NCBI GenBank assembly: GCA_019119365.1
Contig: DWXD01000048.1
Location: 1 to 40,993 of the forward strand
Reading direction: 5' to 3'
Origin: Candidatus Gemmiger stercoripullorum
GTDB taxonomy: Bacteria > Bacillota > Clostridia > Oscillospirales > Ruminococcaceae
Length of the DNA stretch: 40,993 nucleotides
Numbering within the stretch: the stretch's first letter is position 1; every line of letters starts with the position of its first letter. The translations under genes were made by a program, and so were the position numbers. This document shows positions 640 to 31,103 of this stretch, in pieces. The notes under the pieces are model-generated. The model was given only the letters and a program-made list of their open reading frames with translations. It did not search any database and had not been told where the DNA came from.

Positions 640-956
640 AACTTGGCGGCAAGGGATACAAAACGCCCCCTGCCAAATGTGAAATTTGGCAGAGGGCGAA
701 AAATACGCGGTACCACCTCTGTTCGCCCGCGCCTCGCGGCGGCGGGCCTTCGCGGGTACAGGCGGCAGATGCGACCGATCCGATACCCAGACGCTGTAAC
801 GTGCGCACACGGCCCAGCCTACTGCCGCCAAAGCGCGGGTTCGGCCGGCTGCTCCGGGGTGTATTCGCCGCCAGCTGTGCCGGCCCCTTTCACCAACCGG
901 AGCCTCTCTCTCGCACAAAACCGGGCGGGTACTTGTCCCCTTCCCTGCATTTCATA
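640..956 (-). promoter_or_regulatory. Tyrosine T-box leader of tyrS
   Basis: A T-box leader RNA senses uncharged tRNA and switches between terminator and antiterminator. The T-box core AGGTGGTACCGCG reads on the minus strand at 706-718. Upstream is a Stem I-like region with AGAGAGAGG and GGTTGGTGAAAG. A GAATACACC segment places the codon TAC (861-863) as the specifier, which is a tyrosine codon and agrees with the downstream gene. The attenuator hairpin follows at 664-698. Motifs are read directly; the mechanism is that of the established T-box family. Confidence 0.95.
660..698 (-). terminator. T-box attenuator terminator before tyrS
   Basis: On the minus strand CGCCCTCTGCCAAATTT pairs with AAATTTGGCAGGGGGCG-type sequence (two arms of about 15 bp around a short loop) and is followed by TTTTG. 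It directly follows the T-box core, so uncharged tRNA-Tyr is expected to prevent its formation. Confidence 0.9.
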
Positions 957-962
957 GCCCTT

Positions 963-991
963 ATTGTAGCTTGTTGGGGTTCATTTGTCAA
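963..991 (-). promoter_or_regulatory. tyrS promoter
   Basis: Minus-strand TTGACA (986-991), a 17-bp spacer, then TACAAT (963-968). The -35 box is built from the last codons and stop of the MazG-like gene upstream, so tyrS is transcribed independently although it directly follows that operon. Confidence 0.9.
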
Positions 992-1325
992 GCGCTGGAG
1001 CCTTGTCCCGGTGCATCGACTGCTCCGCGCAGAAGCCTTCGGGATAACGCGCGCGCAGCTTGGCAAGATTTACGCGGAGCACGGTCTCCAGGTCCAGATC
1101 CAGCGCGGCGGCCGTCTCGGCCAGGTACCATGCCACATCGCCCAGTTCCCGAACCAAGGCTTCACGGTCCAGCGGGTGGCCCTGCGCCAGATGCTTTTTG
1201 ACAATGTTGATGGCCTCTCCGGCTTCGCCGCAAAGGCCCATCACGCCGTTGAGCAAAACGGCATCCCGGTCCAGCGCGGGGTTCAGCGTGCGCATCGCTT
1301 CCCGCTGGTATTCATTTGCGGTCAC
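981..1325 (-). CDS. MazG-like nucleotide pyrophosphohydrolase
   Basis: A 114-residue all-alpha NTP-PPase of the MazG superfamily, expected to hydrolyse nucleoside triphosphates to monophosphates and pyrophosphate. The metal-binding pattern is visible as E34xxE37 in GEAGE and E60xxD63 in ELGDVAWYL. I chose the GTG at 1323-1325, which overlaps the end of recN by 14 bp and has GAGGGGG just upstream. An ATG at 1368-1370 would give 129 residues but overlaps recN by 59 bp. It is the last gene of the long housekeeping operon. The true substrate (canonical or modified nucleotide) cannot be told from sequence. Confidence 0.85.
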   Translation of the reverse strand: MTANEYQREAMRTLNPALDRDAVLLNGVMGLCGEAGEAINIVKKHLAQGHPLDREALVRELGDVAWYLAETAAALDLDLETVLRVNLAKLRARYPEGFCAEQSMHRDKAPALDK

Positions 1326-30676: not shown

Positions 30677-31070
30677 GGTGTTTCCTCTTTCCTGCACACA
30701 GACACAAAAAAGGCAGTGTGCCGATATTTGCACACTACCTGTGATAAACAAAGAGGTATGGCCCCTGCGTGAAAAATGGGGCGCTGTAAACCCGGTTTGT
30801 CCGATCCGTACTTTAGAGTTTTCTGCAGAGTTTTCCGCAAACTGTTTGGCGCTGTGCCGCGCTGCAACTCTTATTGACGTTTCACAAGTGGTGTGCATCC
30901 GCACGGTTATCAAAGTGACCAACTTATAAAAGTTCCGGGGCGATCCCCGATCAATAAAGTTGTGATGCTTACCATCACACGCGGCAGCGGCCAGCCCTGT
31001 CCGATGAGCTTTAGGCGGCAAAAACGCCCGGCCAAACTATTTTGCTTTGCGGCCCGCAGGACCGGGCCCA
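30677..31070 (-). promoter_or_regulatory. Structured speA leader RNA, candidate riboswitch/attenuator of unknown class
   Basis: A gene-free 5' leader of about 390 nt between the promoter at 31076-31103 and speA. Stems visible on the minus strand: GTGATG/CATCAC (30963-30979); CGGGG/CCCCG (near 30935-30949); a long stem joining 30951-30962 to 30865-30877 (about 12 bp, one bulge); a rival pairing of the same 5' arm with ATAAGTTG near 30920-30927; and GTGC/GCAC (30893-30904). GCACACCACTT at 30886-30896 matches the 5' arm of the terminator at 30730-30740 in 10 of 11 pairs, so it could act as antiterminator. CCTCTTT at 30750-30756 is perfectly complementary to the AAAGAGG ribosome site at 30684-30690. 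No T-box core or known riboswitch consensus was recognised by eye. Confidence 0.7.
30704..30740 (-). terminator. Attenuator-type terminator before speA
   Basis: Minus-strand AGGTAGTGTGC (30730-30740) pairs with GCACACTGCCT (30711-30721), 11 bp with one G-U wobble, around an 8-nt loop, then TTTTTTGTG. It ends about 30 nt before the speA TTG, inside the operon's own leader, so it must be bypassed for speA expression. Confidence 0.88.
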
Positions 31071-31075
31071 GAATT

Positions 31076-31103
31076 ATTTTAACATAAGATATTTTCTTGT
31101 CAA
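31076..31103 (-). promoter_or_regulatory. Promoter of the polyamine operon
   Basis: Minus-strand TTGACA (31098-31103), 16-bp spacer, TAAAAT (31076-31081). The -35 box includes the stop codon of the Crp/Fnr gene. Predicted start of transcription is about 31069, giving a leader of roughly 390 nt. Confidence 0.85.

Follow-up and report, generated by a model that had tools for sequence, protein, structure and literature searches.

The polyamine operon of Candidatus Gemmiger stercoripullorum begins with speA and is preceded by a 370-nt leader, which raises the question of whether this RNA controls the operon and, if so, what it senses. The locus lies in a 40,993-nt contig, analyzed over its whole length and hereafter called the window. 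An earlier note had described the leader as a candidate riboswitch or attenuator, of no class known by eye. The reading favored here, to which we give a probability of roughly two in three, is that of a riboswitch that turns transcription off in response to an end-product polyamine, spermidine being the likeliest.

All features of the leader and operon lie on the minus strand of the window. The promoter (TTGACA-16-TAAAAT with an extended -10 (TG), 31103-31076) matches the consensus at 11 of 12 positions, and its -35 hexamer overlaps the stop codon (31103-31100) of an upstream gene with a cyclic-nucleotide-binding domain. It is followed by a conserved RNA of about 210 nt (31035-30827) and by an intrinsic terminator with its U-tract (30740-30705), in which a hairpin of 11 pairs (30740-30711) precedes TTTTTT about 30 nt before the speA start. 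Both the promoter and the strong terminator had been claimed in the earlier note, and both are present. Of 100 dinucleotide shuffles of the leader, 99 fold less stably than the native sequence (z -2.9). The first gene, speA (30676-29222, TTG start), encodes a predicted Orn/Lys/Arg decarboxylase of the aspartate-aminotransferase fold (Pfam OKR_DC_1, 224.5 bits), for which the NCBIfam decarboxylase models all score far below their cut-offs. The rest of the operon (29218-24770) consists of speE, the gene for carboxynorspermidine dehydrogenase (CASDH), nspC and aguA. The speE, nspC and aguA products pass an NCBIfam cut-off, while CASDH reaches 399.6 bits, below its 800-bit equivalog cut-off. An open frame past aguA (about 24789-23860) resembles, by eye, N-carbamoylputrescine amidase (aguB). 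The speA frame is also open across the whole leader (31021-30676, 0 stops in 119 codons), which is probably due to chance; an in-frame extension of the protein was rejected, the corresponding leaders of 11 out of 11 kin containing 3 to 6 stops.

The RNA is conserved far beyond this genome. When 126 nt of the leader served as query, matches appeared in 25 of 41 relatives, own genome included, some of them in other families of the order. The conserved stretch is about 200 nt long, and the 25 matches precede speA or, in two cases, speD followed by speA. The genus holds two subtypes, one visible to Rfam and one, that of the window, invisible to it. Because a MAFFT alignment of all 25 copies shifted helices P1 and P2 between the subtypes, the first covariance model (R1) was trained on 10 sequences, all of them from the other subtype. 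R1 detects the window copy at 58.5 bits (E 3.8e-13), recovers all 25 relatives' copies (10 of them its training set) and, in a sample of 391 genomes of the class, matches 47, or 30 of 221 genera. A pattern drawn from the 3′ core occurs in at least 118 stretches of named genome contigs, and the matches listed include Lachnospiraceae, Oscillospiraceae, Bacillus, Paenibacillus, Streptococcus, Acidaminococcus and Phascolarctobacterium, among others. R1 matched 78 of the first 80 pattern stretches at E ≤0.01 and all 42 loci of a further set, of which 38 came from the pattern and 4 did not. A second covariance model (R2), built from 98 copies, found the element at E ≤0.001 in 20 of the 398 phylum genomes scanned and in 29 of 35 from the genus Gemmiger, where it separates the Rfam-visible subtype (158-172 bits) from the invisible one (81-100 bits). 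The element is also present in a record of Gemmiger formicilis An723 (L171). The collection used below comprises 175 copies, including 8 repeats, hence 167 distinct ones.

The conserved RNA begins upstream of the stems named in the earlier note, with a 5′ domain (31033-30982) homologous to the stretch modeled by Rfam RF02440 (ldcC RNA). This domain is made of P1 (31033-31030/30992-30989), P2 (31029-31025/31017-31013), P3 (31010-31006/30997-30993) and a loop pseudoknot between CGGACAG (31003-30997) and CUGCCG (30987-30982). It is followed by the P4 hairpin GUGAUG/CAUCAC (30978-30962) and by the P5 helix, in which UUAUUGA (30957-30951) pairs with UCAAUAA (30877-30871) to enclose P6, P7, P8 and P9. 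Together with an extension in the window, P5 is the long enclosing stem that the earlier note had drawn. Inside it lie the P6 hairpin CGGGG/CCCCG (30949-30936) and the P7 helix, formed by UUUUAUAAGUUGG (30931-30919) and CCACUUGUGAAA (30891-30880), which closes the P8-P9 junction and whose 3′ strand is part of the antiterminator. The stretch 30920-30927, which the earlier note took for a rival partner of the long stem's 5′ arm, is more plausibly read as belonging to the 5′ strand of P7. The junction carries the P8 hairpin GGU..ACC (30920-30905) and the P9 hairpin GUGC-GGAU-GCAC (30904-30893), the latter being the GTGC/GCAC hairpin already noticed and here found to be a conserved element. A 3′ segment (AGAGU ... 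UUUGC ... ACUCU, 30871-30827) shares its sequence with many relatives; a P10 stem within it did not rise above shuffles (141 vs 133 of 171).

Covariation across the upstream regions of relatives, named in the earlier note as a check on its proposal, is strong. The main alignment holds 98 of the 175 copies, mostly those of at least 100 bits plus two from Streptococcus. It was aligned to R1 and is thus fitted to R1's structure, and the shuffles used for comparison do not keep relatedness; within these terms, 95.5% of the cells are paired (85.8 +/- 0.3 in shuffles), two-sided changes occur in 24 of 44 pairs (15.6 +/- 2.0 in shuffles) and they amount to 384 cells, vs 95 +/- 16 in shuffles and at most 78 when the partner is slid by 1 to 3 columns. 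Most helices are also recovered from alignments that were not fitted to a structure. On a MAFFT alignment of 15 own-subtype copies, RNAalifold predicted P1 to P7 and P9, with two-sided changes in 8 of 51 pairs, all within P2, P4 and P6. On a MAFFT alignment of 20 diverse copies it predicted P1, P2, P3, P5, P6, P7, P8 and P9, with two-sided changes in 14 of 54 pairs. P4 was missing from this second prediction, its place being taken by a TGCC/GGCA pairing incompatible with both P4 and the pseudoknot; P4 nonetheless shows compensatory changes within its own subtype and two-sided changes in all 6 pairs across the family.

The helices differ in how they are supported. P6 shows compensatory changes in the family and in both RNAalifold sets. 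P8 has two-sided changes in 3 of 4 pairs in the family and is predicted in the diverse copies, not in the own subtype. In 92 of 96 sequences, the P9 segment folds with 3 bp or more, compared with 56% of letter-shuffled ones, at a mean of -5.5 vs -1.4 kcal/mol. P5, with 5 of 7 pairs invariant among the 98 sequences, and the nearly invariant P7 (UUUUAUAAG/CUUGUGAAA) are predicted by RNAalifold in both alignments. The loop pseudoknot (CGGaCAG/CUGCCG) is paired in 95.2% of the cells of the 98-copy alignment with zero two-sided changes, hence P5, P7 and the pseudoknot draw little support from covariation. An outer helix, P0, likely closes the RNA. In the window, its 5′ strand CCGCAAA (31046-31052) has a putative partner in UUUGCGG (30841-30835), a pair read by hand, the longest match found there by script being another, wobble-containing one. 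Helices of this type (GCAAAUAU/AUAUUUGC) are found in many relatives' copies, and over 150 of 174 copies the longest run averages 8.35 bp with the own partner, 6.90 with swapped and 6.59 with shuffled partners.

The suggestion that this RNA belongs to no known class holds for the window copy and fails for its homologues of the same genus. At the gathering score, no Rfam family is found in the window leader, and a scan at E up to 10 gave just two chance-level matches there (E 4 and 4.8), neither of them to RF02440, the gathering threshold of which (37.2 bits) is not reached. In the whole genome, the RF02440 matches listed include none at the leader locus or above the cut-off. RF02440, "Streptococcus sRNA SpF59 (ldcC RNA)", is a 54-nt model of Rfam type "Gene; sRNA". 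In relatives, a scan at E up to 2 placed it over the first 52-75 nt of the RNA in 10 of 10 loci, and a scan at the gathering score found it in 4 of 6 loci, CASDH and potA leaders included, and missed L059 (Streptococcus oralis) and L161. Searches of 25 relatives' genomes put RF02440 above the cut-off in 7, none of which is the own genome or one of the eight others of its subtype; it was also above the cut-off in 1 of 14 control genomes. These matches in relatives are confined to the first 50-75 nt of the RNA.

The window's 5′ domain carries the P1-P3, CGGACAG and CUGCCG architecture of RF02440, and it is continuous with RF02440-positive copies, since R1, built from the other subtype, finds the window copy and since both subtypes occur in one genus. 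From its sequence, the window RNA is best described as a divergent variant of a catalogued but uncharacterized RNA; it is a homologue and, as it fails the RF02440 threshold, is not filed under that family. A wholly new class, as the Rfam blank of the window alone would have suggested, was dropped in view of the RF02440 matches in relatives. The Rfam model fits the 5′ domain of relatives before speA, CASDH, speD and potA genes, but it lacks the P4-P9 core, P0 and the terminator switch, and is typed as a small RNA. A 2017 study reportedly proposed the ldcC motif to be a candidate cis-regulator. Among the open-licence papers listed, none was seen to assign this RNA a ligand.

The genes behind the element are those of polyamine synthesis and uptake. 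Using tblastn with six reference proteins, the first gene was found to be speA in 105 of the 175 copies, speD in 26 and CASDH in 26. The remaining 18 consist of 10 copies before a PotA-like ATPase, one before a P-II gene followed by a PotA-like gene, and 7 with at most 252 nt left. For the 167 distinct copies, the counts are 99 speA, 25 speD, 26 CASDH, 9 potA, one P-II then PotA-like and 7 cut off. Hence a polyamine gene comes next in 167 of the 168 copies with a visible gene, starting 92 to 502 nt past the last base of the covariance model. Most CASDH contexts (23 of 26) come from records whose names point to genera of the Bacillaceae or Paenibacillaceae type, and streptococcal copies precede speA wherever the gene is visible. 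Gene identities were examined with NCBIfam and Pfam for a few loci, the remaining PotA calls coming from reading translations. PotA of L043 passes NF043075 (566 vs 550 bits) and SpeD of L012 passes TIGR03331; the PotB-like protein of L079 (174 vs 350 bits) and CASDH of L063 (422 vs 800) stay below their cut-offs. Pfam identifies ABC_tran and TOBE_2 in L043, L079, L092 and L135, and P-II in L135.

All four contexts (speA, speD, CASDH, potA) make or import spermidine. Among the ligands offered in the earlier note, spermidine would therefore fit the contexts best, arginine, agmatine and SAM each suiting only some of them. Three neighborhoods are worth recording in their own right. The P-II nitrogen regulator gene between the element and the PotA-like gene of L135 might point to a link with nitrogen. 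In L150, the element precedes speD and then a gene that is MetF-like by eye, suggesting a link to SAM supply. In L029, some 330 nt separate the element from a raiA RNA (973-1172, minus strand, 155 bits) on the opposite strand.

The leader ends in what appears to be an expression platform. Of 174 records, 166 extend far enough upstream to be scored, and in 121 of these the 120 nt ahead of the RNA contain a promoter-like site matching at least 10 of 12 positions, compared with 3.5% of first-order resampled sequences; at 9 of 12 or better, the figures are 137 of 166 and 21.8%. The -10 lies at a median of 48 nt before P1. A terminator, defined as a U-run behind a hairpin of -7 kcal/mol or lower, precedes the gene in 161 of 167 visible-gene copies (154 of 160 distinct, a raw count). 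The median distance from its end to the approximate start of the gene is 51 nt, with 60 nt or less in 107 of 161 and 100 nt or less in 140 of 161.

In the window, 10 of 11 positions of GCACACCACTT (30896-30886) are complementary to AGGTAGTGTGC (30740-30730), the 5′ arm of the terminator, as the earlier note had claimed. Written as RNA, this antiterminator 5′ strand GCACACCACUU overlaps the 3′ strands of P9 and P7, and the GCACACCACUU/AGGUAGUGUGC duplex is better than those of 200 out of 200 letter-shuffled arms. Across the family, the terminator 5′ arm pairs with the 3′ strand of the core better than do 95% of its letter-shuffled versions in 113 of 160 copies, or 93 of 136 distinct arms, and misses this mark in 47 of 160, Streptococcus among them; the duplex averages -12.7 kcal/mol with the own arm and -10.5 with swapped arms. 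The letters of the pair shift by lineage: GCAGACUUGUG with CGCAAGUCUGC in L022, UCACUUGUG with UGCAGGUGA in L046, CAUCAUCUU with AGGAUGAUG in L103 and, in a potA context, ACACAUCG with CGAUGUGU in L044. Four of the five distinct Streptococcus arms do not rise above chance (fractions 0.77 to 0.89), and the remaining one, L134, comes to 0.055. The streptococcal L059, L072, L143 and L164 have short terminators and no significant antiterminator pairing, suggesting that a different platform is possible there; in the alignment, L059 and L072 also lack P8 altogether and P9 for the most part.

The element thus combines a conserved, structured, aptamer-like domain with an expression platform that, by computation, excludes the aptamer fold. 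The proposal of a riboswitch or attenuator before the polyamine operon is supported by the conservation, the covariation, the terminators and the lineage-shifting antiterminator complementarity. Upon forced folding of the window leader, the core form reaches -133.4 and the antiterminator form -127.8 kcal/mol, against -138.0 for free folding. Free folding favors the terminated form, so that an ON state would need to arise kinetically.

With structure, conservation, gene contexts, terminator and competing-strand complementarity established computationally, the speA-speE-CASDH-nspC-aguA leader would attenuate transcription in cis by means of a large RNA that resembles an aptamer (P1-P9, the pseudoknot and likely P0). 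When the core is stabilized, P7 and P9 would hold the strand GCACACCACUUGUG, leaving the hairpin at 30740-30711 free to form, and transcription would stop before speA. When the core is not stabilized, GCACACCACUUGUG would pair with the terminator 5′ arm and allow RNA polymerase to read through. The stabilizing ligand would be an end-product polyamine, most likely spermidine, in which case polyamine synthesis and import would be shut off when the cell has enough. We infer direct metabolite binding, the identity of the ligand and the OFF polarity from this arrangement. Transcription attenuation in cis by the conserved RNA is highly probable, and a small-molecule ligand, given such attenuation, is only slightly less so; that this ligand is spermidine or a close polyamine is favored with lesser confidence.

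The same attenuator could respond to another molecule of the pathway, namely putrescine, agmatine, arginine, cadaverine, SAM or decarboxylated SAM. Agmatine or cadaverine is the product of SpeA-type enzymes, SAM is a substrate of SpeD and putrescine is a further cargo of PotABCD, but CASDH, NspC and SpeD probably consume or by-pass these compounds. An OFF switch for any of them would accordingly fit part of the contexts only, spermidine being the presumed shared product or cargo, and we regard another ligand as rather unlikely. Less likely still is a protein that binds the RNA and controls the terminator. The present analyses read the same for a small ligand and for a protein, and a gene with a cyclic-nucleotide-binding domain lies directly upstream in the window; however, the element is spread over Clostridia, Bacilli, Negativicutes and Streptococcus records, and its conserved junctions and variable outer helices resemble those of an aptamer.

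The alternatives to metabolite-sensing attenuation also include a trans-acting small RNA (F59/srn235/SN20/Spd_sr49) that merely adjoins speA. In PMC3395615, F59 of S. pneumoniae is listed among sRNAs and placed between SP0915 and SP0916. PMC12323649 likewise lists srn235/F59/Spd_sr49 among sRNAs, with coordinates spanning 327 nt and a match in 385 genomes, and F59 is listed with "Lung" in a review (PMC4387999). The Rfam type of RF02440 agrees with these lists, and a promoter and terminator of its own would yield a discrete RNA. However, the near-constant polyamine gene next to the element (167 of 168 visible cases) and the tie between the terminator arm and a core strand speak against an independent RNA, and the short distance from terminator to gene (median 51 nt) leaves little room for a second promoter in most copies. 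This explanation is therefore improbable. Ribosome-dependent attenuation through a leader peptide is the most doubtful reading: such control would suit arginine or lysine decarboxylases, but a closed ORF of at least 8 codons preceded by a Shine-Dalgarno sequence occurs in only 21 of 161 leaders, and the leader peptide was rejected as a candidate.

A polyamine-sensing OFF riboswitch would have one accepted counterpart. According to PMC10853860, convincing polyamine riboswitches were long sought, and the one accepted class, for spermidine, is a SAM-I variant described as rare. This class resembles the present element in its targets (ldcC, speE, speB and speD) and in acting as an OFF switch via an intrinsic terminator and antiterminator, but differs in its SAM-I-like aptamer and in its occurrence in Bacillus, Trichococcus and relatives (PMC10853860). 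In the window leader, no SAM family is matched at E up to 10, and no SAM-I-like aptamer was found. T-box RF00230 is likewise not matched in the leader at E up to 10; its sole match in the window is a T-box leader at 689-954 (minus strand), slightly above the gathering score (95 vs 93 bits). The odc1 uORF element and the potE motif (PMC8632094) are also RNA elements near polyamine genes but are described with other genes (ornithine decarboxylase with a uORF, and potE).

An RNA of about 210 nt before genes of both polyamine synthesis and uptake allows the question to be put directly to the test in gut commensals such as Gemmiger and Faecalibacterium and in soil Bacilli, and it also shows that the 54-nt RF02440 model of Rfam misses a whole subtype. 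Taken to the scale of the family, the chances are about even that it forms a second and far more widespread natural class of riboswitches for spermidine or a close polyamine, with an aptamer unrelated to SAM-I. Such a class would govern synthesis by SpeD/SpeE and CASDH/NspC as well as import by PotABCD across Bacillota, and the pneumococcal "sRNA" F59 would be its terminated leader. The finding could also reassign a pneumococcal small RNA to a switch acting in cis.
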